Assembly: GCF_040500475.1 (NCBI RefSeq)
Contig: NZ_CP159358.1
Coordinates: 1,922,001-1,986,000 of the forward strand
Length of the DNA stretch: 64,000 nucleotides
Source of the DNA: Bacillus sp. Bos-x628
GTDB taxonomy: Bacteria; Bacillota; Bacilli; Bacillales; Bacillaceae
Direction: 5' to 3'
A program made the translations under genes and the position numbers. Below are positions 47,772 to 64,000 of the stretch, one piece after another (positions within the stretch are counted from its first letter, which is position 1; the number at the start of each line of letters is the position of its first letter). The notes below the pieces were generated by a model. That model was not told the DNA's origin and made no database searches. It saw only the letters and a program-made list of their open reading frames with translations.

Positions 47772-49106
47772 ATGTTGAATTGGTTCAAACCAGCCCCGCA
47801 TATTGAAAAGCTTGATGATGCCAAGATAGACGAAACCTATAAACGGTTACGCCTGCAAGTCTTTTTAGGGATTTTTATTGGCTATGCCGGCTACTATTTG
47901 CTGCGCAAAAATTTCGCCTTTGCCATCCCTTATTTACAGGAGGAAGGGTTCACGAAAAGTGAATTAGGCTTTGTCCTAGCGGCAGTCTCCATTGCCTATG
48001 GATTTAGTAAATTCATCATGGGGATGATCTCTGACCGCTGTAACCCTAGATACTTTTTAGCGACCGGACTTTTTCTATCCGCTCTCATCAATATCTTATT
48101 TGTCTCATTTCCATGGGTGACATCCAGTGTATGGATCATGTTTTTATTCATGTTTTTAAACGGCTGGTTTCAGGGAATGGGCTGGCCGCCATGCGGACGT
48201 ACGATGGCGCATTGGTTTTCTATTAGTGAACGAGGAACGAAGATGTCCATTTGGAACGTCGCTCATAATATCGGCGGGGGAATCCTTGCACCGCTCATTA
48301 CATTAGGCATTGTGCTGTTTGCTACTTGGAAAAGTATCTTTTTCTTCCCTGCCATCACTGCCATTATTGTTTCTTTCGTCATCATTCTTCTCGTACGAGA
48401 CACGCCGCAATCTGTTGGTCTCCCGCCAATTGAAGAATATCGAAATGACTATCCAGCCCAGAAATATGAAGATCAGGAAAAAGAATTAACAGTGAAGGAA
48501 ATCTTGTTTAAATATGTACTGAACAACAAATTCCTTTGGTATATCGCCATTGCCAACATCTTTGTTTATTTCGTCCGTTATGGCGTCGTTGACTGGGCAC
48601 CAACATATTTGACGGAAGCAAAAGGTTTCTCACCAGAGAATTCCCGCTGGTCTTATTTCCTTTATGAGTATGCCGGCATACCAGGCACACTATTGTGCGG
48701 ATGGATCAGTGACCGCTTCTTTAGAAGCCGCCGCGCTCCAGCAGGCGTGATCTTTATGGCAGGTGTTCTCATTGCTGTACTCATCTATTGGTTAAACCCA
48801 GCTGGCAATCCAATGGTCGATAACATTGCACTCATCAGCATTGGCTTTTTGATCTATGGGCCTGTCATGCTCATTGGACTGCAAGCAATTGACCTCGCCC
48901 CTAAAAAAGCAGCTGGCACCGCTGCCGGACTAACAGGTTTCTTCGGTTATATTGGTGGCTCTGCCTTTGCCAATGCGATGATGGGTGTTGTTGTTGATCA
49001 CTATGACTGGACAGGAGGCTTCATTTTACTCATCAGTTCATGTGTGCTTGCCATCGTTTTCCTTGCAATGACGTGGAATACAGGCAAGCGGGTAGAGACA
49101 GCTTAA
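47772..49106 (+). CDS. glpT: Glycerol-3-phosphate:phosphate antiporter GlpT
   Basis: A 444-residue organophosphate:phosphate antiporter, the same length as B. subtilis GlpT, with twelve membrane segments. [31 protein letters not shown] carries the substrate-binding Arg in helix 1, and [20 protein letters not shown] is the family signature of helix 4-5. AAAGGAGG precedes ATG. It forms a unit with glpQ 92 bp downstream: GlpQ releases glycerol-3-phosphate outside and GlpT imports it. Confidence 0.95.
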
Positions 49107-49198
49107 TAAAACTCACATAAAAGATTTATATCCACCCAACATGCTCTTTACATCTATTTTTTATGATAGAGGCAGTTACCGTAAAAGGAGGATAAAAA

Positions 49199-50080
49199 AT
49201 GAAGAAAAGTAGATTTCTTTCTTTTGTGTTACTCTCTTTTGCTTTGCTGTCTTTTGCGTGGGTGCCGACAACCATATCGGCACACGAAAATCTTTTATCT
49301 CCAGATCTTATCCTAACCGTTGCACATCGCGGAGCATCAGGGTATGCACCAGAGCATACCCTTGCTTCCTATAGACTCGCCACAAAGATGAATGCGGATT
49401 ACCTCGAACTCGACGTTCAAATGACAAAAGATGGACACCTCATCGTCATGCATGATGAAACCGTTGACCGGACAACAAACGGAACAGGCTGGGTCAAAGA
49501 CCTCACACTTGCCGAAATCAAACAGCTCGATGCTGGGGCATGGTTTAACGAAGCCAACCCCGACAAACAAAATGCCAACTATATTGGACAGCAAGTCCTC
49601 ACATTAGATGAGGTATTGCGCTATTTCGGCAAACGAGAGAATTATTATATTGAAACAAAAAAACCAGACCTTTACCCGCAAGTGGAAGAAAAGCTATTGG
49701 CCACCTTAAAGAAACATCATCTTCTCGGAAAACATACGAGAAAAGGGCAGGTCATCATTCAATCCTTTAGTCAAGACAGCCTGCTAAAACTACAAAAACT
49801 TGCCCCTCACCTTCCGAAAGTACAGCTCTTAGACAGAGCCCAAATGACGGCCATCACAGACGATCAGCTCGACTTCATCAAAACTTACGCAGTGGGTATC
49901 GGACCGAATTTTAGAGCATTAACTCTTGAGAATGTGCAGCAGGTCAGAAGCCACGGGCTCCTTCTTCATCCATATACAGTAAACAGCGAAGCAGACATGA
50001 CCCGTCTTCTGCAATATGGCGTCACCGGCCTTTTCACCAATTTTCCAGATGTCTTTCAGCGTGTAAAAGCCTCGCTGTAA
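49199..50080 (+). CDS. glpQ: Secreted glycerophosphodiester phosphodiesterase GlpQ
   Basis: A 293-residue enzyme with a signal peptide ending near TTISAHE (about residue 27). The GDPD core is intact: VAHRGASGYAPEHT with catalytic His and Arg, ADYLELDVQMTKDGHLIVMHDETVDRTT with metal-binding Glu/Asp and second His, and YYIETKKP. It hydrolyses glycerophosphodiesters, and in Bacillus also teichoic acid-derived ones, to glycerol-3-phosphate for GlpT. AAAAGGAGG lies before ATG. The operon ends in a strong terminator. Confidence 0.95.
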   Translation: MKKSRFLSFVLLSFALLSFAWVPTTISAHENLLSPDLILTVAHRGASGYAPEHTLASYRLATKMNADYLELDVQMTKDGHLIVMHDETVDRTTNGTGWVKDLTLAEIKQLDAGAWFNEANPDKQNANYIGQQVLTLDEVLRYFGKRENYYIETKKPDLYPQVEEKLLATLKKHHLLGKHTRKGQVIIQSFSQDSLLKLQKLAPHLPKVQLLDRAQMTAITDDQLDFIKTYAVGIGPNFRALTLENVQQVRSHGLLLHPYTVNSEADMTRLLQYGVTGLFTNFPDVFQRVKASL

Positions 50081-50086
50081 ACAACA

Positions 50087-50119
50087 AAAGCCTTGCGGTG
50101 AACCGCAAGGCTCTTTATT
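50087..50119. terminator. Bidirectional terminator between glpQ and ytnA
   Basis: AAAGCCTTGCGGT and ACCGCAAGGCTCTTT form a near-perfect 10-bp stem with a short loop. Confidence 0.85.
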
Positions 50120-51506
50120 ATCTCACTATTTGATCAGCTGATGCTGTTTGGATCGGTTTCCGCTTTCCAATACCAAATGCATAAAAGCTAAGCGCCACTA
50201 AAGCCAAGAACACAATCCCTACAATAAGAGAAATACGCGTATCTTGATTAAAATACATAAACACAAGGACCAACAACAAAAAACCAATCGTGACATAATT
50301 AGAGATTGGGGCAAGCGGCAGCTTAAATGGATGACCATCAAGTGCTGCACCCTTTACCTTTCGAAAACCAATATGACTAATCAAAATCACAAACCAAGGC
50401 ACCATACCTGGAAGTACACTCGCACTATACACATAGACGAAAATATTTGGAGGAGAAACATAATTCAGGACAACTCCTACCGCCAAACCAACAAGCACAG
50501 CGATTGTACCAAAATACGGCACACCGTTCTTTGAGATTTTTGTAAAGAAGGCTGGCGCCTGTCCATTCATACCTAACGTATAAAGCATACGCCCCGCACT
50601 GAAAATACCACTGTTACAGCCAGACATAGCTGCTGTAATCACGACGAAGTTAATAATACCAGCAGCCGCTGTAATACCGATTTTCGCAAACGTCGCCACA
50701 AATGGACTGCCAAGGGTATTCAGCTGATCCCAAGGATACACTGTCACAATGACAAAGATCGCACCAATATAAAAAATCAAAATACGCCAGATGATACTTT
50801 GAATTGCACTTGTCAGCGTTTTTTGCGGATTTTTTGCCTCACCTGCCGTAATCCCGATCAGTTCAACCCCTTGATAGGCCGCAATGACAAGAGACAGCGC
50901 AAAGAAGAAGCCACTCATTCCACCCGTAAAGAAACCGCCATGCGTCCAAAGATTAGACAAACCAATAGCTGTTCCACCATTTCCAAATCCAAAGAAAATA
51001 ATGCCTAGACCCGCAATAATCATCAAGATAATCGTCACAATCTTGATCATCGCAAACCAAAATTCAAACTCACCGAAAGATTTCACTGAAATTAAATTAG
51101 CCGCACCTAAAATGATCATTGCAATCAAACCTGGAAGCCAAGCCGGTAATTCCGGGAACCAATATTTCATATACGTTCCGACGGCAATCATTTCAGACAT
51201 CCCGACAATGACCCACTGGAACCAGTTACTCCAAGCGGTCATATACCCCGCAAGCGGATGAATATATTGATGTCCAAATGTAGCAAACGATCCAGTACTC
51301 GGTTCAAGATATAACATTTCTCCCATGGCACGCATAATAAAAAAGATAAAGACTCCACACACCGCGTACGCAAGGAGTACCGACGGACCTGTCCATTGAA
51401 TGGCACTGGCTGATCCCATAAAAAGACCAACACCAATCGTACCGCCAAGTGCAATCATTTGAATATGACGCGAACTTAACCCTCTCTTTAATCCCTTTTG
51501 AACCAC
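50118..51506 (-). CDS. ytnA: Amino acid permease YtnA
   Basis: A 462-residue AAT-family permease almost identical in layout to B. subtilis YtnA (463). [27 protein letters not shown] is the first-helix signature and [32 protein letters not shown] the central loop. GTG 51506 is chosen since GAGGGGGGAAG lies just upstream and it gives the expected [12 protein letters not shown] start; the frame is open 45 codons further with no support. Substrate not known with certainty (proline or neutral amino acids have been suggested for relatives). Confidence 0.88.
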
Positions 51507-51791
51507 TTTTCTTCCCCCCTCATCAACATAAAACATAAAAAAATCAGAATGTTCATTCTGATTACGAATCATCAATCTATTGATGTATATTATCATAATA
51601 AATCTACCCTTAAAAAACAATTGTTTTTTTGAGGGAAACACTATTTTCCTAATATTCCGAAATTAAAACCCCTTCAATTTTGTTATTTACATATAAAGAA
51701 TTTAGTAATCTAGCATCACTAAATATATTTTTAAACATGACCTTCTTCTACTAAGTGAAGACAGAACAATGATAAATAAAAAAAGACAGAA
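51507..51791. other. AT-rich region upstream of ytnA
   Basis: Must hold the ytnA promoter. No gene is supported. It marks the left border of the accessory segment. Confidence 0.35.
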
Positions 51792-55448: not shown

Positions 55449-55475
55449 AAAACCTAGAATATACATTCTAGGTTT
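55449..55475 (-). terminator. Terminator at the end of the skf transcription unit
   Basis: AACCTAGAAT and ATTCTAGGTT pair perfectly around a four-base loop with A- and T-tracts. It overlaps the stop codon of the small ORF behind skfH. Confidence 0.8.
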
Positions 55476-55683
55476 CATACGAATGAATTGATGAATGATG
55501 ACTTTCTTCTTTCCTCATCACACGCTTCAAATAAAACAAAATCCCCAATCCGAACAAAATCAACGTCAGCTCCCAGTCTGCTGAAATCGGCAACCATTTC
55601 AGCATCATGAGAGTCAGCAAGACAGCTCCCACACCTGCGAAAAAGACCGCATTTCTTTTTCATTCTTTGTTTGATTGAAACAA
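55468..55683 (-). pseudogene. Small two-helix membrane ORF after skfH, interrupted by one TGA
   Basis: TTG 55683 has GGAGGAG about eight bases upstream. The frame runs 72 codons with a single TGA at codon 8 (MFQSNKE-stop-KRNAVFFAG), where Trp would fit. After it come two hydrophobic segments (FFAGVGAVLLTLMMLKWLPI; LTLILFGLGILFYL) and a His/Ser-rich tail. It is 23 bp behind skfH and before the operon terminator, so it was probably co-transcribed with skf. Family unknown. Confidence 0.55.
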
Positions 55684-55706
55684 AACGCTCTCCTCCATAA
55701 CCCTTA

Positions 55707-56126
55707 TTAAGATTGTTTTTCTAACTTTTTCAATATCTTCTCCCAGCCGGTATCTCCCATTTTTCGATCTACTAATTGCCCCTCTTCATCCATTAAACAA
55801 AAGCTAGGCAATCCTTGCACCTTATATTTTGTGACGATCTCATAATCTTGATCCAAAATAATTGGAGCTGTGATATTCTTTTCTTCCGCATACGTTGAAA
55901 CAACGTCTATTGATTTTTCTTCCTCCGTATACGGCACATGAACACATGTTACATTGATTCCTAGCTGATTCACACTTTGCAAAACATCCTTTGTTAACTC
56001 TTCACAATGAGGACAGTTGATCGACCAAAAATAAAGGAGTTGGATACGACCTTCTGACGAAAGCGGTTGATCTGAACGTCGAATCCAAGGTAGATGATCA
56101 GGCCATTTAAACAGTTGAGTCTCCAT
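55707..56126 (-). CDS. skfH: SkfH, thioredoxin-like protein
   Basis: A 139-residue thioredoxin-fold protein. LLYFWSINCPHCEELTKDVL carries the redox pair Cys38-Pro-His-Cys41, and VQGLPSFCLMDEEGQLVD has the cis-Pro loop. No clear signal peptide. It begins immediately at the stop of skfG, implying coupled translation. B. subtilis SkfH (141 residues) is thought to form the disulfide of the killing factor; here the partner cysteines of SkfA are conserved. Last intact gene of the operon. Confidence 0.9.
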   Translation of the reverse strand: METQLFKWPDHLPWIRRSDQPLSSEGRIQLLYFWSINCPHCEELTKDVLQSVNQLGINVTCVHVPYTEEEKSIDVVSTYAEEKNITAPIILDQDYEIVTKYKVQGLPSFCLMDEEGQLVDRKMGDTGWEKILKKLEKQS

Positions 56127-56642
56127 TTACTCATCCTCCTTTTCTTTTAATTGAAAAGCAATGATTTTCCCTAATGCCTCCTCTGCAGCAAACGGTGCGA
56201 CATTCCCAGAAGGATTCTCCTGTTCGTGTTTTAAACACTCGTACATGTTTTTTTCAATTTTTGACGGATCAATCCAAGAAATACACCACGATGCCCAAAA
56301 ACAAGTAGGGCCTTCATAACGCTTAGCCAACGGAATGAGAAACGGTAAACTAGGCTGACCAATCCTCATGAGTGAGATCGCAGCCGCCATTCTCGTTTCC
56401 TCCTCTTCACTTTCTAGTAACTGTGCAAGTGACTCTGCGGCTTCTCCTGCATCTGCTCCAAACTCACCCAGTACAGCCGCTGCAATATTCCTTAAAGACC
56501 CCTCTTCTTTCAAGGCTTCAACAAGGACTGGAACTGCATCTTTCCCTGACTTTTTCAATTCTCCCATCGCTTGAACGATCGTCACTTCATTTGTATTGAC
56601 TAAATGTTGAACTGAATTGTATAACTTATCTTCAGGTTTCAT
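56127..56642 (-). CDS. skfG: SkfG, HEAT-repeat-like protein
   Basis: A 171-residue, all-helical soluble protein. Repeating helical pairs (KDAVPVLVEALKEEGSLRNIAAAVLGEFG; ESLAQLLESEEEETRMAAAISLMRIG) indicate HEAT/armadillo-like repeats. Length equals B. subtilis SkfG (171). ATG 56642 has GGGAG nine bases upstream, better than the TTG three codons before. Its role in killing factor production or immunity is unknown. It follows skfF by 18 bp. Confidence 0.88.
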   Translation of the reverse strand: MKPEDKLYNSVQHLVNTNEVTIVQAMGELKKSGKDAVPVLVEALKEEGSLRNIAAAVLGEFGADAGEAAESLAQLLESEEEETRMAAAISLMRIGQPSLPFLIPLAKRYEGPTCFWASWCISWIDPSKIEKNMYECLKHEQENPSGNVAPFAAEEALGKIIAFQLKEKEDE

Positions 56643-56660
56643 TAAAATCAACTCCCCTTA

Positions 56661-58082
56661 TTAATTGGTCGCACGGAACCGATAACAAACAGCACAATAC
56701 AGCAACCCAATTATGATGAATGTAATCGTTGTATACCAGCCATCAGTGAAAGCATGAATCCCTATTAAACTAAGAGCACTTATCACTACTGCGATGAACA
56801 ACGATCGATAATATACAACCATTGATAATCTCGCTTCTCGTCTCAATGGTTGAGTGAAAGCAAACAGCCTTGTGGCCAAAAACCATATATAAAGTCCTAC
56901 CCCATACATAGACCAATAAAATAAATCAACTACCTCATTGAAAAGAAGAGAGATGAAGTAGACAATATATAACCATATGGTCTGAAATCCCTCCAATATA
57001 AGGATTTTTTGATAAAGGGCACCTGGAAAAAGGTACAGCACGCCTGTTTGTGCATGCCTTACGATTCCAGCATAATATGAACTCAGCATAACTGATGCAA
57101 GAATGATGACATTGAATAATATCAGCCATTCTGAAAAAAAAGAAAGCACCACATAAAACAGACCAATCAGTAGCATGGTAGACAAAAAGTGGAAGGTGAT
57201 GTATTTTCTGATCAACAATAATTCTAGCCACAGGAAAGCCCAGTTGCCGGTTAATTTTTTTCCCCCCCACCATGTGTTGCTCTTTTTTTGAAGCATCTGA
57301 TTTGAATGGATTTGTTTTCCTTCAAATTCTTCCCAAAACTCCGCCTCTTTGACTAACGACTCCTTCATCTCCAAACGGTTGCAAGCCAGATAAATAGTCA
57401 CCAAAGATAAAGCCATAACCCCGAGAAATATAAATAAATAGAGAAGTGAGACCGTTTCAAACATACGCCCAACATGATTCATAAAAGAATCGGCTTCGCT
57501 TAAAAACGAGAAGCGTTGCAGGATAAATCGACTCAAAAAAAGCAATAAATAACAGCCAAACATCATCAAAAAAATAAACAAGTAGATTCGTTTGTACGCT
57601 TTAATGGTTCTAGCAGAAGAAACAGCAATCATCCATGTTTCAACCATGAGTAACATGCCAGTCAGAATTAAAGATTTCCCGAGTAGAAAAGGATATTGTT
57701 GTGTAAAGAAAAAAATAAGAAAATCCGTAAAAATGGCAGAGACAATAAGTAGAGCACTTCTCCAAAAAATGTGATACATCCATACACTCATCACCACTGT
57801 CCATAGAGAAGCACCATTCCCATATAACCAAATGATATCGTTCATTTGACTAGGTAGCCGATTCGAAAACAAACCAAATCCAGTATAGAGAATAAAAAGA
57901 AAAACAATCATCCAACCTGCTACACTAGAATCCCAACTACCCATGCTCAAGACGGCACTGAGCTGAAAACCAATCGCTCCAACTAAAAGCAACAATATGA
58001 GTAAAGGCATTTTCTTTTCTTGGTTTTTGCTGATAAAACGCCTTTTGGACTTGGTCCATAAAAGAGAAATCGTATTATTCAC
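56661..58082 (-). CDS. skfF: SkfF, ABC transporter membrane subunit
   Basis: A 473-residue membrane protein with about twelve hydrophobic segments and a cytosolic loop near the middle (NRLEMKESLVKEAEFWEEFEGKQIHSNQM). Starts at GTG 58082, overlapping the skfE stop by 8 bp, so the ATPase and permease are translationally coupled. It forms the membrane part of the exporter that secretes SKF and gives the producer immunity in B. subtilis. Similar length to the known protein. Confidence 0.9.
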   Translation of the reverse strand: MNNTISLLWTKSKRRFISKNQEKKMPLLILLLLVGAIGFQLSAVLSMGSWDSSVAGWMIVFLFILYTGFGLFSNRLPSQMNDIIWLYGNGASLWTVVMSVWMYHIFWRSALLIVSAIFTDFLIFFFTQQYPFLLGKSLILTGMLLMVETWMIAVSSARTIKAYKRIYLFIFLMMFGCYLLLFLSRFILQRFSFLSEADSFMNHVGRMFETVSLLYLFIFLGVMALSLVTIYLACNRLEMKESLVKEAEFWEEFEGKQIHSNQMLQKKSNTWWGGKKLTGNWAFLWLELLLIRKYITFHFLSTMLLIGLFYVVLSFFSEWLILFNVIILASVMLSSYYAGIVRHAQTGVLYLFPGALYQKILILEGFQTIWLYIVYFISLLFNEVVDLFYWSMYGVGLYIWFLATRLFAFTQPLRREARLSMVVYYRSLFIAVVISALSLIGIHAFTDGWYTTITFIIIGLLYCAVCYRFRATN

Positions 58083-58797
58083 TTGACCACTCTCCCAGAA
58101 GTTGGATCACTTCTGACCTCCATCTTATTTGCTCTTCTTTCAATTGAGGAACAAGAATACTTTTCATGATTTCACCGTCTCGAATCAGAATCACTCTGCT
58201 AGCTGTATCAAGAACGAATTCCAAACTATGAGTAGACACAAGAACAGAGCCACCATCACAGCTTTTTTGTTTCAACCAATGCGATAGCCATTGTTTTGAA
58301 GGAATATCTAATCCCACAGTAGGTTCATCCAATAAAAAGAGTGAAGCATCTTGAACAATCGCTCCTGCTAAGACGACACGTTGTTTTTGGCCTCTCGAAA
58401 GCCTCCCGCACAGTTCGTTCATCTTATTCTCCATATTTACTTCTGTCAATGCTTCATGTACTTTTTCTTTTATATGCTTTAAGCCTTTATGATATCCTCT
58501 TGCACGAAATTGAACATGTTCAGCAACCGTTAACTCGGGATACAAATACGGTTGATCCGGAATAAGTGCCACTTGCTTTTGAACATGAATATGACCAGGG
58601 GGAGAACCCTCTATGAGAATCTCCCCTTGATCCGGTTTATATAGACCCGTCAAACACCGAATCGTTGTTGTTTTACCAGCACCATTAGGTCCAAGCAGTG
58701 CAACGACTTCTCCCCGCTCGATGGAAAATGACAAATTCTCTATCCCATCACCGTTGCTATATCGTTTGCTTACGTTCTGTACCTCCATGAATGGCAT
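58075..58797 (-). CDS. skfE: SkfE, ABC transporter ATP-binding subunit
   Basis: A 240-residue ABC ATPase: Walker A GPNGAGKTT at 36-44, Q-loop at about residue 82, signature LSRGQ at 133-137, Walker B LFLLDEP at 153-159 and the switch His in VSTHSLE. AAGGAGAG precedes the ATG. With SkfF it forms the killing factor exporter and immunity pump. The 17-bp gap to skfC and overlap with skfF show operon organisation. Confidence 0.93.
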   Translation of the reverse strand: MPFMEVQNVSKRYSNGDGIENLSFSIERGEVVALLGPNGAGKTTTIRCLTGLYKPDQGEILIEGSPPGHIHVQKQVALIPDQPYLYPELTVAEHVQFRARGYHKGLKHIKEKVHEALTEVNMENKMNELCGRLSRGQKQRVVLAGAIVQDASLFLLDEPTVGLDIPSKQWLSHWLKQKSCDGGSVLVSTHSLEFVLDTASRVILIRDGEIMKSILVPQLKEEQIRWRSEVIQLLGEWSSE

Positions 58798-58814
58798 GAA
58801 ATCTCTCCTTTATA

Positions 58815-60305
58815 TTAGAGTGATGTTTGCTGAGACTTTTTCGTATGTATATACCTTTGAAGTTTAAATTGCCATAAGGGCATACAAACAAGTACAAGAT
58901 TATGAATAAAATGTGCGACCAATACACAAATAAAACCATATTTTACGAAAAGGAAGCCAAGGAAACATCCGAATACAAAAAGATGCATCCATCGAATCCA
59001 TCTAGGATCATACCCTGTGACTTGATGCATGATAGCCCACAACAAAGATGAGAGTAAAATTGACAACACAATACTTTCACTTAACCAAAATAGTAAGGAA
59101 ATGATTAAAAGTCGATAAATCACTTCTTCCCCAATAGAACTCTGCAGACTCATATTTAACCCTTGTCTTAAGGTAAAGCCTGATAAGAACATGCTTCTAT
59201 TCGATAACTCTGGGGAAATGCGCAAATGATTTCGGCTCTCTAATAAATAAAAAATAAGAGATGTGATCCCTAAACTGATTAATCCGGCACCAAACCCTAT
59301 AAAAAACTGACCACCGAACTGATCTAACCCATTCCAATTCAATTCATTCGCAAGCGCCTCTCCTGCCAATGAACATACAAATACTACAAATCCTGTAAGT
59401 AATCCTGCAAGAAGTGTTGATATGACCCCAAGTAAACGTACCGTACTCACGCTCATTCTTGCATCGTAAGCATTTACAATTGTCAACTGTATATCTTCCT
59501 TGATCGTAAGAGATTGTACAAAAACGATGCATAAACCGAGTATAAGGCTAAGCATGATTTGAGTTTGAACTTCCATCAATACTAAGACGAGAATCGCCAT
59601 CACCATTGCCGCAGCCGACCCCAACATACCTGAAATGCCAAAAGTAGATTCTACTTGTTCATCTCGTATCACTTTATTCATCTGATCTGTTAGAATCTCT
59701 ACATCTGTTCCTATATAGGTGATAACACCAGCTTGCATTTCAACCGTCAGCTTCAGCCGAACATCTTCCTCTTCTGTAAGATACCAATACGTTTGAATTT
59801 CGCGAAAGTCCTCTTCCTTTGAACCTGAACCAGTTGTTTTTGCCTTCGTCCATAGTCCTTTAGAAGATCGGGTTAATTGCTGCTTTAATATTTCCGGTGA
59901 TAATTGTTCAGTTTTTTTAGATAGTGATTTTTGACTCACATCTGCATAAAAGAACGTCACTTCACGTCTAGCATTCACTCCTACAACAAATGATTGGTGT
60001 TGATGGACAAAGCGAACTCGCCATGATTCAACCAAACCTAGATCGTGAAGTATGCTTCGATTTTTCTTCAGTAACCCTAAATGATGGAGTTTGTTCACTG
60101 TCTCATGATCGTACCAATAGACTGAATAAACATCCCATTCATCAACATTGACTCCTACAAATTCTTTGATAAATTCAATGCTGATTTCTCTTGCTTCACG
60201 TTTATCTAAAAGGTTTGACTCAATGGTCGACGTTTTATACTTAAGAAATAGCACAATCCCTATCAACCCAAGCCCACCCCAAAAAATGAATGTAAAGCTA
60301 CTCAT
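58815..60305 (-). CDS. skfC: SkfC, CPBP-family membrane protease
   Basis: A 496-residue membrane protein. The N-terminal half is a soluble region after one anchor helix; the C-terminal half has about eight membrane segments and the CPBP (Abi) protease motifs: EEVIYR with Glu393-Glu394 and Arg398, His427 in WAIMHQVTG, and His465/His468 in LVAHFIHNLVL. Its start overlaps the skfB stop by 8 bp (ATGAGTAG). In B. subtilis SkfC is thought to remove the SkfA leader and close the peptide ring. Here it is one uninterrupted frame. Confidence 0.92.
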   Translation of the reverse strand: MSSFTFIFWGGLGLIGIVLFLKYKTSTIESNLLDKREAREISIEFIKEFVGVNVDEWDVYSVYWYDHETVNKLHHLGLLKKNRSILHDLGLVESWRVRFVHQHQSFVVGVNARREVTFFYADVSQKSLSKKTEQLSPEILKQQLTRSSKGLWTKAKTTGSGSKEEDFREIQTYWYLTEEEDVRLKLTVEMQAGVITYIGTDVEILTDQMNKVIRDEQVESTFGISGMLGSAAAMVMAILVLVLMEVQTQIMLSLILGLCIVFVQSLTIKEDIQLTIVNAYDARMSVSTVRLLGVISTLLAGLLTGFVVFVCSLAGEALANELNWNGLDQFGGQFFIGFGAGLISLGITSLIFYLLESRNHLRISPELSNRSMFLSGFTLRQGLNMSLQSSIGEEVIYRLLIISLLFWLSESIVLSILLSSLLWAIMHQVTGYDPRWIRWMHLFVFGCFLGFLFVKYGFICVLVAHFIHNLVLVCMPLWQFKLQRYIHTKKSQQTSL

Positions 60306-61533
60306 TTGCGATTCCAGCTTTCATTTCGTTTTGAAAAGGCAAATCTGGTTCCGATAATTCAACTTTCCCTATGCATTTGCAGTTTTTCGCTTCACACTTT
60401 AATTGTAATAGACGTGCGGGTGAACCAATATCAAATAGATGATCATGTAATATATGGCCTAGAGAAACATCTTCCAATTGACAAGGCGTTACATAGCCGT
60501 CCGCTCTTATATACCAAGCTAAGTAGCCAGGCGTACAAAAATCAGTCGTAAAAGAACTCTCTTCATGCCCCCAATCAATTATATTCAAGTGATTCCCCCA
60601 TTTATGACGTGCTTGCTGTAATTGACTTTGAACACGCTGTTCAAAGTCACTGTCCAGCGCTTTATAATTTTTTGTTGCACGCCCAACAGACAATGTTTTC
60701 CCAGCACGGAAAATTGAAGCATTCGCATTTGCACAGTGATCAATAACCTCTGATACTTGGTCTGCATTCATTTCGTTAATGGTCATTGCAACAATGACAG
60801 GTACTTGAGCTTCTGCCAAATGTTTGATCGTTTGCATACTCTCATGATAAGCACCTTTTCTACCTCTAAGTGAATCATGCGTATCACTCATGCCATCAAT
60901 GCTAATTTGTACAGATACATTTCCAAGATGACTAAGCAATTCTATTTCTTCACGTCTCCAGTTAAGTCCGTTGCTAAAAACATTAACATTTGTAAACAAG
61001 CAACTGGCAGCCATAACGATTTCTTTAAATCCTTTTATTAATTTTGCTTCTCCTCCAGTTAAAGTAACATCTGCTACGCCTTGCGCTGCTAACTTTTGCA
61101 TCACCATGATCCACTGTGAACGATTTAATTCGTTCGGATAGGGCTTGCCTGAACTGGCATAACAAAAGGAACAGCCTAAGTTACAAGCATTGGTTAATTG
61201 CAGAGTGCAGCTAACAGGCATATAGGTCTGCAGCGACCCAGAAATTTGAATCGGTCGATCCAACAAACCCTGTGTCCATGCTTCTGTAAAAGGGTGAGCA
61301 CTCAGTTCTTCTCGAAGCTGATCTGCAGTCAGTTCTTCCTTTTTCACAATTTCCCAAATACGTGCGGTTTTGGCCAGATCTTTATTTTTGGATAATAAAA
61401 ATGCCAGTTGAGCACCCCTTCCGCTTAGTCTAAAATAATACATCGACTTCCTATCTATCATGACAGCTCCATGAGGCTGTAAATGGATGGCTAGTTCAGG
61501 TAAATCGTAATCTACTACTTGATTATTTGACAT
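60298..61533 (-). CDS. skfB: SkfB, radical SAM thioether (sactionine) synthase
   Basis: A 411-residue maturase. An N-terminal PqqD-like precursor-recognition region (about 10-90) is followed by the radical SAM core with CNLGCSFC: Cys117, Cys121, Cys124 bind the [4Fe-4S] that cleaves SAM. TLTGGEAKL at about 157-165 is the GGE motif. The C-terminus has Cys333, Cys351, Cys380, Cys385 and Cys387 for the auxiliary cluster (SPASM/twitch-like). In B. subtilis the enzyme links a Cys sulfur of SkfA to the alpha-carbon of Met. AAAGGGG precedes ATG. It lies 64 bp after skfA, across a hairpin. Confidence 0.95.
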   Translation of the reverse strand: MSNNQVVDYDLPELAIHLQPHGAVMIDRKSMYYFRLSGRGAQLAFLLSKNKDLAKTARIWEIVKKEELTADQLREELSAHPFTEAWTQGLLDRPIQISGSLQTYMPVSCTLQLTNACNLGCSFCYASSGKPYPNELNRSQWIMVMQKLAAQGVADVTLTGGEAKLIKGFKEIVMAASCLFTNVNVFSNGLNWRREEIELLSHLGNVSVQISIDGMSDTHDSLRGRKGAYHESMQTIKHLAEAQVPVIVAMTINEMNADQVSEVIDHCANANASIFRAGKTLSVGRATKNYKALDSDFEQRVQSQLQQARHKWGNHLNIIDWGHEESSFTTDFCTPGYLAWYIRADGYVTPCQLEDVSLGHILHDHLFDIGSPARLLQLKCEAKNCKCIGKVELSEPDLPFQNEMKAGIANE

Positions 61534-61557
61534 AAATAGACACCCCTTTTTGAAGTA

Positions 61558-61590
61558 TAAGGAGTTAGCAAAATATGCTCAACTCCCTAT
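61558..61590 (-). other. Hairpin between skfA and skfB
   Basis: AGGGAGTT-AGCA and TGCT-AACTCCTT form a long stem (one bulge) around a short AT loop. No T-run follows in the minus-strand direction, so it is more likely an mRNA stabiliser or a partial block that makes skfA transcript exceed skfB, as seen for many precursor peptide operons. Confidence 0.6.
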
Positions 61591-61597
61591 GTTAGCA

Positions 61598-61765
61598 TTA
61601 AAGAGCCCGCATAGCAGGATGTGGTAGAACACAAACACGTGTCATGGCAATACTTTTTGAGGCCCAGCACCCCATACATCCAGCCGCCTTCACAATGGAA
61701 GTACCACCTTGACGCTTAAGGGCTTTTTTACTCACAGATTCCCATTCTTTTTGGTTTCTTTTCAT
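61598..61765 (-). CDS. skfA: SkfA, sporulation killing factor precursor peptide
   Basis: A 55-residue precursor, identified by direct match to the known SkfA. It has AGGAGG nine bases before ATG 61765. The leader is about 29 residues (MKRNQKEWESVSKKAL..., then VKAAG). The mature core starts CMGCWASKSIAMTRVC and ends LPHPAMRAL, 26 residues. Cys1 and Cys16 of the core can form the disulfide, and Cys4 with Met12 the thioether; core residue 17 is Val and the last Leu, where I recall Ala and Ile in B. subtilis. The C-terminal residue joins Cys1 in the head-to-tail ring. First gene of the operon. Confidence 0.95.
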   Translation of the reverse strand: MKRNQKEWESVSKKALKRQGGTSIVKAAGCMGCWASKSIAMTRVCVLPHPAMRAL

Positions 61766-61825
61766 AAGTAAAACCTCCTCTTAAATTTTGCATAGTGTCA
61801 ATAGACCCACCTACCATGCACCCTG

Positions 61826-61854
61826 ATATTACCATATGAAAGGTGTCGAAGTAA
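61826..61854 (-). promoter_or_regulatory. Predicted skf promoter
   Basis: On the minus strand an extended -10, TGGTAATAT, has a poor -35 (TTACTT) at 17 bp, typical of an activated promoter. A Spo0A box overlaps the -35 region. About 60 bp before the skfA start. Confidence 0.6.
61844..61850 (+). promoter_or_regulatory. Spo0A box at the skf promoter
   Basis: TGTCGAA is an exact 0A box (TTCGACA on the transcribed strand), placed adjacent to and overlapping the -35. In B. subtilis skf is switched on by low levels of phosphorylated Spo0A, so position and motif agree. Confidence 0.65.
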
Positions 61855-61931
61855 GGGGAATTTTGCTATTAATTCTAAAAAAATACTTATTAGGAAAAAT
61901 ATATAAATGGTAATGAGAGATTGAACAAATA

Positions 61932-61966: not shown

Positions 61967-62022
61967 TCAGCTTTTCTCTATATGGTGGTTTTGAAACAAT
62001 CCTCATTAGAAAGAATGTGATA

Positions 62023-62231
62023 TTAATACTCAATTAGATTTATCAATATTGTTTTTTTATCGTAAGTAATATTCTTTATCACCCCAATTGCATTGGGTAC
62101 TGTAAGATTATTTCCCTTTAAGCTCTTGATCTTAAATTTTTCGTCTAATGCAATTTTTGCTAAATCTACTTCCAGTGCTTCCCGATTCTCTTTAATTCAT
62201 TTATTTACTTTAAATGATCTTTTTTCGCCAT
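62023..62231 (-). pseudogene. Short frameshifted ORF, unknown
   Basis: ATG 62231 with AAAGGGGTG upstream gives MAKKDHLK, a TAA, then a frameshift into NREALEVDLAKIALDEKF and GVIKNITYDKKTILINLIEY to the end. The 209-bp span is not a multiple of three. A small decayed gene of unknown family. Confidence 0.45.
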
Positions 62232-62275
62232 AAAAACACCCCTTTAGACAATCATATCCAAAGGGGTAAAACGGT

Positions 62276-62443
62276 ACAACTTTATTTCTAATCTAGTTGA
62301 AAAGTGACAATAAAGTTATTTAATTTTAAAACCTCAAACAAGCATAACCTCGTTATAAATTTAGGACAGGGGAAAATAAAGTTGTTTAATTTTTAATAGA
62401 AGATACTTCACTGTACTAAGAATACAACAATAAAGTTGTTTAA
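62276..62443. repeat. Cluster of AATAAAGTTGT-like repeats
   Basis: AATAAAGTTATTTAA (62309), AATAAAGTTGTTTAA (62375) and AATAAAGTTGTTTAA (62429) are direct repeats, and ACAACTTTATT at about 62277 is an inverted copy. Spacing is 66 and 54 bp. No gene is open across them. Possibly regulator sites of a lost gene or an iteron-like array. Confidence 0.45.
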
Positions 62444-62512
62444 ATCTATAAGTTGCTCCATAATGAATAATCTACTGTTTAACAATCTTTTTTATAAAAT
62501 ATAAGGGTTATT

Positions 62513-62655
62513 TTAGTTCAATTTCTTACAAACACCTGTTTTGATATAGCCACCCATTTCATATAGATAACAATTACGTTCCTCTTCTAAAATTGTAACT
62601 AATCCCCAATTAGTAGCTTTAATAATAATTTTCTCAACTGAAATAATAGCTCTGA
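62513..62655 (-). other. Start-less short open frame
   Basis: A frame without a start codon encodes VEKIIIKATNWGLVTILEEE then RNCYLYEMGGYIKTGVCKK before TAA at 62515. Composition looks coding, so it is probably the end of a lost gene. Not recognised. Confidence 0.3.
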
Positions 62656-62656
62656 G

Positions 62657-63050
62657 CTATACCTTTACTTTGGTGGCATCATCAATAAATAAGACAAGGT
62701 ACACCTGCTTATTCTTCCTGTTGGGACCGATCGGAAGAAAAGGCCCATACTTTATATCCGATTGCCAAAGACTATTGCCGAAGCGTTTCTGAAACCTGGG
62801 GGCAAGCTGTGCCAAAGCTGGTATACATTCGCATTTGGTGGAACTGTAGCCTCGTTCGGTCAGTTTCTCCTGTAATGTGTTCCGTTTCAAGTGTCCGGGC
62901 TGTGCTTTTCCTTCCCACTCCAAAATCTGAATGGTTTGGCTTACACTTCGACCCAGCACTTCTCTTCTTAGAAGAATGGCTTCTTCCAATAGGTGAAGAG
63001 GTACAGCCTTCTTTATCTGTTTCACGGTTTTACTTTTGGGTTTTAGCCCC
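62657..63050 (-). pseudogene. Remnant of a DDE transposase/integrase (IS relic)
   Basis: The frame (GLKPKSKTVKQIKK... onwards) encodes LLEEAILLRREVLGRSVSQT and FGNSLWQSDIKYGPFLPIGP then QVYLVLFIDDAT, the start of an rve/DDE integrase-type transposase core with the first catalytic Asp (QSD) and the FIDDAT strand. It stops after about 120 residues and upstream is cut by a TAG; about one third of the gene remains. No terminal inverted repeats were found. Confidence 0.75.
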
Positions 63051-63160
63051 TAGCATCCTTCAGCTGTTCTGTCATTATTTATAAGGTGCATTTCATAATA
63101 ATTATTTGCCTGAAGTTTCAATAATAAAAGGTTTTATTAGACTCGTAATACCTATATGCT

Positions 63161-63715
63161 TTACTTACTGAATTTTTCTGTATAATGTATTAACTGGTCT
63201 GTAAAAGCAGCAATCCTCTTATGAATATCACCTGAATTAATTACATAAGTATCACCTTGCATAATAAAATCACTGTTACAGGTGGAAATTTGCATTGGAA
63301 TTGCTAATCCTAATAATCCCCTAACGACAATTCGTAAGTGGTCTAAAGGCTGAGTGCTTCGTAATCCTCCGCCGTTGGCTACAATACCAATTGGCTTATT
63401 CATCAAAATATCCATATTTAATATATCGAGTGCATTTTTTAAAACTCCTGAATAGGAATTATGATAATTTGGAGACCCGATAACTAATGAGTCGGCATCT
63501 GTAGCTAGCTTCACAAATTCTTTTACTATAGAACTTGGGTGTTGTCCTGGAGAATGATGAAATTTGGGATCAACAAAAGGAAGGGGTTGTTTTTGTAAAT
63601 CCCACACAGTTATTTCACATCCTTTTTTTTGCAATTGCGAACCTATTTCTGTAACTAATGCAGTGGTATGTGCAGGTTTGGCTGGGCTCCCAGATATTAA
63701 AAAAACTTTTAACAT
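63161..63715 (-). CDS. NADPH-dependent FMN reductase family protein
   Basis: A 184-residue flavodoxin-like reductase. VFLISGSPAKPAHTTALV is the FMN phosphate-binding loop, and DSLVIGSPNYHNSYSGVLKNALD the family motif that holds the flavin ring. ATG 63715 has GAGG eight bases upstream; the frame opens six codons earlier without one. It resembles SsuE/chromate or azo reductases; physiological acceptor unknown. It is 24 bp after the MFS gene on the same strand, so probably one operon. Confidence 0.85.
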   Translation of the reverse strand: MLKVFLISGSPAKPAHTTALVTEIGSQLQKKGCEITVWDLQKQPLPFVDPKFHHSPGQHPSSIVKEFVKLATDADSLVIGSPNYHNSYSGVLKNALDILNMDILMNKPIGIVANGGGLRSTQPLDHLRIVVRGLLGLAIPMQISTCNSDFIMQGDTYVINSGDIHKRIAAFTDQLIHYTEKFSK

Positions 63716-63739
63716 GATAAATACCTCTTTCATATAAAA

Positions 63740-64000
63740 TTAATAACTTGATGACTGATAAGCTATCTCTGTTGTATCCGATTTACTTATGCTTCTATAC
63801 CATAAGTATGAAAACAAACCAGTGGTTATTAAAACGTAAATAGTTATAAATGTAAAAGATATAAATAAGGAAAATGCAGATAATATACCTCCGACGATTA
63901 AATACGCAAATGCATCTGCGATATTCCCTATACTAGATCTTACTGCCATTACTTTTCCTAACATATTATTCGGAGTTCTCAACTGTAATAATGTAGTCAT
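63740..64000 (-). CDS. MFS transporter, C-terminal end (cut by window edge)
   Basis: The visible 86 residues are the last third of a major-facilitator protein: LLQLRTPNNMLGKVMAVRSSIG corresponds to the loop before helix 11 in the macrolide/multidrug group (often MPDHMLGRVMS-like), followed by two hydrophobic helices and a hydrophilic tail ending in YQSSSY. The gene begins outside the window. Start at the edge is not real. Confidence 0.8.
   Translation of the reverse strand: MTTLLQLRTPNNMLGKVMAVRSSIGNIADAFAYLIVGGILSAFSLFISFTFITIYVLITTGLFSYLWYRSISKSDTTEIAYQSSSY

Follow-up and report, generated by a model that had tools for sequence, protein, structure and literature searches.

The window (the whole 64,000-nucleotide stretch analyzed here, positions 1,922,001-1,986,000 of the 3,225,051-bp contig NZ_CP159358.1 of Bacillus sp. 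Bos-x628) carries on its minus strand an intact, resident skfABCEFGH operon for the sporulation killing factor (SKF), the sactipeptide cannibalism toxin of B. subtilis, with which sporulating cells would kill their siblings. In the pumilus group, to which the host belongs, the locus occurs in three states: producer (as here), probable immune non-producer retaining only skfEFGH, and empty. We assign this reading a probability of about 0.85. Gene content, the Spo0A-binding (0A) box, the junction shared by the short forms and the constraint on skfE-F-G were read from the sequences, and from them we infer toxin production, immunity and loss of Spo0A control. A fuller account, to which we give roughly even odds, is a toxin/immunity polymorphism in which one skfABC deletion left skfEFGH behind a promoter without Spo0A control, recombination shuffled this form among species, and SkfG and perhaps SkfH are parts of immunity and not of maturation.

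The operon itself is real, intact and ordinary, an expected find in a group in which SKF is already known. The preliminary description had implied that skf outside B. subtilis was novel, which the literature contradicts: SKF clusters are reported, in the excerpts available of each paper, for B. pumilus and B. atrophaeus (PMC5100339), B. pumilus 64-1 (PMC7820076), B. pumilus GM3FR (PMC5374235) and B. safensis LG01 (PMC12654287). What is new here is a variant SkfA core and the three-state locus of the pumilus group, and the toxin-loss polymorphism of the relatives matters more than the operon. No description of a form with skfABC deleted and skfEFGH retained was found in the excerpts available from the open-licence PMC literature. 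An excerpt of PMC8139322 places skfB among the genes specific to land versus marine B. altitudinis strains, a pattern that fits polymorphism at this locus.

Three states of the locus in the pumilus group

The pumilus group was defined as the 17 of 44 genus genomes with a match of at least 87% to the window flank 47772-51641 over nearly its full length; among the matches listed, the remaining genus genomes gave pieces longer than 1 kb at no more than 78% identity to the flank. One genome per species was sampled, and the 17 include two B. pumilus strains. A search for SkfA and SkfB across Bacillus genomes had been proposed in the preliminary description, and was run with NCBIfam equivalog cut-offs of 45 bits for SkfA (TIGR04404), 300 for SkfB (TIGR04403) and 150 for SkfF (TIGR04405). 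SkfA was present in 11 of the 44 genus genomes, five of them in the pumilus group (G000, which is the window, G034, G029, G008 and G021). SkfF was present in 18 of the 44, including 12 of the pumilus group, and in 18 of 80 genomes at the family level, all in the same genus. The pumilus group comprised five genomes with the full operon, seven with skfEFGH without skfABC (G035, G043, G003, G040, G038, G041 and G017) and five that were empty (G036, G032, G031, G026 and G016). The profile search found neither SkfA nor SkfB over the cut-off in the seven short-form genomes, in which skfEFGH lies at its native address; the contigs that carry it in G041 and G017 also bear RidA-like and GlmS-like genes, named from reading the translations. 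No SkfF match was found in the five empty genomes, where the RidA-like gene adjoins the region downstream of the operon.

The part without a counterpart in the skfEFGH-only relatives is a 2970-bp skfA-B-C segment of the window (58832..61801, minus strand), a length that all five full operons of the pumilus group share. Five loci were compared first, and their DNA identity to the window is lost at 58831, within the last codons of skfC. Upstream of skfE, all seven short loci carry TGGTAATAT, GGTCTA, 28-39 bp of filler with the common motifs ACATT and CACCAT, and the last 17 nt of skfC; in the version found in G034, G029, G021 and G008, these 17 nt are exact in six short loci and have one mismatch in G038. 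Judged by this arrangement, all seven short forms have the same deletion junction, in which the end of skfC survives. The short form was taken as derived because the outgroup operons also hold skfA-B-C. In one of these, that of B. tequilensis G007 (L019), skfC is cut short, being open only to 215 amino acids (aa), and skfA is intact. It was also considered whether skfBC had been swapped into G021, and the trees showed no clear conflict.

Promoter of the full and short forms

The Spo0A box claimed in the preliminary description was recovered upstream of skfA (61844..61850, minus strand) as an exact match to TTCGACA, which we take to be the 0A-box consensus. The extended -10 element of the skfA promoter, TGGTAATAT (61826..61834, minus strand), conforms to TGGTA[AT]TAT, as it does in all 16 loci scanned. 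Exact TTCGACA starts 16 bp upstream of this element in all nine full operons scanned, five from the pumilus group and four others, with the divergent operons of G006 and G014 left out. The promoter core TGGTAATAT is retained in all seven skfEFGH-only loci; no 0A box was found in any of them, allowing one mismatch within 250 bp in both orientations. This pattern suggests that the skfEFGH-only promoter may have been freed from Spo0A control. A stronger -35 element in that promoter was considered and dropped, its spacing being unfit.

Possible spread among species

The skfEFG tree intermixes short and full sequences, with 3 changes of state (mean of 5000 shuffles 4.1, with 22% of them at or below 3), and forcing the seven short sequences together was rejected by the approximately unbiased (AU) test (p ~1e-4). 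The host tree required 6 changes for short versus the rest (shuffle mean 5.6, with 84% at or below 6) and 7 for the three states (mean 8.3, with 21% at or below 7), in what is a weak test given its 12 to 17 tips and two markers for the host. Taken with the one shared junction, these tree and shuffle results suggest that recombination may have exchanged the locus at its 5' end. Repeated similar deletions would formally be admissible in place of exchange.

Proposed immunity, constraint and alternatives

In the proposed mechanism, a rise in Spo0A~P would switch on the skf operon, after which SkfB would form the Cys4-Met12 thioether on SkfA and SkfC would probably cut off the leader and close the ring. 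SkfEF would then export the peptide, protect the producer, or both, with SkfG probably and SkfH possibly belonging to the protective module. Orphan bacteriocin immunity loci are immunity genes without a toxin gene, and the loci of the seven short-form relatives resemble them, differing in that the address is unchanged, the deletion has left a scar of the toxin operon and the promoter has changed. The absence of the 0A box, together with skfE-F-G open and under constraint in six of the seven, suggests that the skfEFGH-only forms may be immune non-producers. The series of relatives also suggests that cannibalism-toxin makers may coexist with immune non-makers across species.

According to excerpts of PMC13343845 (2026), skfB and skfC of B. 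subtilis serve maturation and skfEF autoimmunity, and the functions of skfG and skfH are listed as unknown; skfH is grouped with modification genes in an excerpt of PMC8172795. At one address, the natural deletion series (full, skfEFGH-only, empty) sets the toxin genes apart from the protective ones, so that the functions of skfG and skfH can be tested directly. That skfG stayed behind with skfEF when skfABC was lost points to SkfG serving protection or the transporter. The structure predicted for SkfG, an all-helical HEAT-type solenoid (predicted local distance difference test, pLDDT, 85), would be suited to binding or to work as an adaptor; Foldseek matches were mostly designed ARM/HEAT-like repeats with template modelling (TM) scores of ~0.4-0.56 and gave no functional lead. 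The place of SkfH in the protective module is less certain, because skfH is broken in two of the seven short forms and in one full operon.

Constraint was measured as the ratio of nonsynonymous to synonymous substitution rates (dN/dS). Between skfEFGH-only genomes it was 0.06-0.11 for skfE (four pairs), 0.23-0.33 for skfF (five), 0.05-0.12 for skfG (five) and 0.17-0.21 for skfH (two), compared with 0.06-0.12 (five), 0.17-0.25 (five), 0.03-0.10 (five) and 0.13-0.32 (four), respectively, between full pumilus-group operons. The sister pair G017/G041 gave 0.11 for skfE, 0.32 for skfF, 0.046 for skfG and 0.17 for skfH. Constraint on skfE, skfG and skfH is about equal in the two forms. By these ratios and the open frames, skfG is kept and constrained along with the transporter, and skfH less strictly.

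The skfEFGH-only loci could instead be transporters kept for another purpose, such as another peptide or envelope stress, or slowly decaying remnants, which we consider a serious but less probable alternative. It would account for the loss of the 0A box from the short-form promoter, and for the dN/dS of SkfF, which in the sister pair exceeds that of every other gene in the module and lies above the values between full genomes. Reading frames point both ways: skfH is lost in two short loci and skfE split in one, but skfE-F-G is open in six of the seven, and skfE-F-G-H all in five. The low skfG ratios of the five skfEFGH-only pairs and the promoter core kept in every short locus also speak against transporters kept for other ends and against decay.

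Several observations weigh against the three-state immunity interpretation. Constraint on skfF is a little weaker in the short form; most of skfH is gone from the short locus of G003; skfE and skfH are split in that of draft G043; and a full operon, that of G021 (L012), has skfH broken near its start with skfA intact. Of the seven skfEFGH-only genomes, five are draft assemblies; G003 consists of two contigs and G038 of a single one, so draft quality alone does not explain the gap. The 0A scan was limited to 250 bp, and the loci scanned are related and hence not independent observations. In the excerpted text of PMC13343845, SKF was undetectable in a skfEF mutant, so the transporter does more than give immunity; the same text gives a limited effect of SKF in laboratory biofilms and mentions a noted lack of antimicrobial activity.

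Genes and layout of the window operon

As the preliminary description had it, the operon is complete: seven open frames, skfA-B-C-E-F-G-H, lie at 55707-61765 in the B. subtilis order, with starts overlapping or abutting at B/C, E/F and G/H, and every one of skfC, skfE, skfF, skfG and skfH intact and in sequence. The easily missed skfA (61598..61765, minus strand, as are all features here) encodes the 55-aa SKF precursor that had been proposed, with core CMGCWASKSIAMTRVCVLPHPAMRAL and a TIGR04404 score of 116.4 bits. It is followed by skfB (60298..61533; 411 aa), the predicted radical S-adenosylmethionine thioether maturase (TIGR04403, 804 bits), which aligned over 409 of its 411 residues with the solved SkfB of PDB 6efn. 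Its CxxxCxxC motif (Cys117/121/124), together with Cys333, 351, 380, 385 and 387, is retained in all nine SkfB compared. The skfC gene (58815..60305; 496 aa) encodes a CAAX/Rce1-like membrane protease (Pfam PF02517, 3e-12) with a probable role in leader removal and cyclisation.

Next come skfE (58075..58797; 240 aa), the ATPase of an ATP-binding cassette (ABC) transporter for immunity or export (PF00005, 9e-36) with Walker A and signature motifs retained, and skfF (56661..58082; 473 aa), its membrane subunit (TIGR04405, 646 bits). The coordinates of skfG (56127..56651; HEAT-repeat protein, PF13646, 1e-11) assume a TTG start giving 174 aa; an ATG at codon 4 would give 171 aa, as relatives have. 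The last gene, skfH (55707..56126; 139 aa), encodes a thioredoxin-like protein with CPHC (PF13905, 2e-10). A terminator-like hairpin followed by a T run was read from the sequence at 55450..55475 (AAACCTAGAA...TTCTAGGTTT). Chance is not an issue for the identification of the operon, and its intact, constrained genes make it likely to be functional.

The likeness to B. subtilis skfABCEFGH extends over gene order, families, the 0A box in the promoter and the catalytic cysteines of SkfB; compared with the subtilis-type operon of G004, SkfF and SkfH of the window are each 51% identical and the core differs at two positions described below. B. pumilus GM3FR (L025) and 36R_ATNSAL (L024) have the same seven genes at the same locus, with 79-82% operon DNA identity to the window and the usual SkfA core. 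The divergent skf operons of G006 (L020) and G014 (L021) belong to the same families, with SkfA, SkfB and SkfF over the cut-off, but their SkfA is 69% and SkfF 34-35% identical to those of the window, their core has Ile2, Gln11 and Pro17, and their genomic surroundings are apparently different. The host had no match to TIGR04032 (SdpC) or TIGR04077 (YydF/EpeX), and the B. subtilis control matched both. None of the 17 pumilus-group genomes had an SdpC-family match, against 12 of the 44 genomes of the genus; for YydF/EpeX, the host was the only genome searched besides the controls.

Origin of the operon

A B. pumilus-like host had been suggested, and the flank and trees agree in placing the window in the pumilus group. 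The tree of dnaA plus flank joined the host to G008 with 97% support, several deeper nodes being weak (41-60%). The comparison of operon and host phylogenies that had also been proposed put the window operon within the pumilus group. The operon is resident, with no recent import.

Recent horizontal acquisition from the B. subtilis group is very improbable and was ruled out on identity, address and trees, even with SkfA as patchily distributed as its presence in a quarter of the genus genomes implies. Operon DNA identity is 65-73% to B. atrophaeus, B. tequilensis, G004 and G020, versus 79-82% to four pumilus-group operons. The host dnaA (2,196,402, minus strand) and skfA (1,983,759) are ~213 kb apart, and in G004, with dnaA at 431 and skfA at 213,947, the distance is alike, so the address is that of the subtilis-type operon. 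The G004 operon clusters with the B. atrophaeus and B. tequilensis operons, and the skfBC and skfEFG trees both group the window with pumilus-group sequences at 100%. A SkfF search gave no match in phages and a single 23% match among plasmids. The latter is an annotated SkfF on the 258-kb plasmid NZ_CP015439.1 of Anoxybacillus amylolyticus, 23% identical over 80% of the window SkfF and possibly a distant skf-like transporter.

Introgression from outside the host lineage was suspected, since the operon identity of the window to pumilus-group relatives (79-82%) is below the flank identity (87-90%). It is unneeded, because the dnaA and flank tree also gives the host and G008 long branches.

The SkfA core variant

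The preliminary description had all catalytic and core residues kept. This holds for Cys117/121/124 of SkfB and for Cys1, Cys4, Met12 and Cys16 of the SkfA core, including the thioether and disulfide residues, but fails for the SkfA core as a whole, where two substitutions, Ala17Val and Ile26Leu, had been overlooked. Neither occurs in the ten other SkfA aligned, which have Ile26 throughout and Ala17 in eight, with Pro17 in two (G006 and G014). The window SkfA is a naturally occurring variant in its core, altered at the last residue, which closes the ring. For a 26-residue cyclic sactipeptide with a head-to-tail ring, one thioether and one disulfide, the architecture given in an excerpt of PMC8172795, the predicted [M+H]+ is 2810.337, compared with 2782.305 for the commonest core.

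Because both substitutions are missing from all other SkfA compared, the window operon might lack active SKF despite its open frames, its core being not cyclisable or inactive. We think this unlikely: both changes are conservative, the cross-linked residues are kept, and skfB dN/dS is 0.05-0.07 relative to three pumilus-group relatives. Against G034, dN/dS ranged from 0.03 to 0.17 across skfB, C, E, F, G and H.

Neighbouring regions

Directly past skfH, the window holds two overlapping small frames of 62 and 54 aa (55468-55663), the shorter of which looks membrane-like by eye; most of the full, skfEFGH-only and empty genomes compared have similar DNA or protein. On the other side, ~13 kb separate skfA from a GlmS-like gene (window 62000-64000 and on to ~1,996,800), almost unmatched in the relatives compared. 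This stretch contains an IS481-like insertion sequence remnant (25 bits, below the cut-off) and a flavin mononucleotide (FMN) reductase. Its translations, read by eye, include a major facilitator superfamily (MFS) transporter, a 726-aa M16-type peptidase-like protein, an epimerase, an aminotransferase, a methyltransferase, a second reductase and a tetratricopeptide repeat (TPR) protein, and the whole looks like a small biosynthetic cluster.

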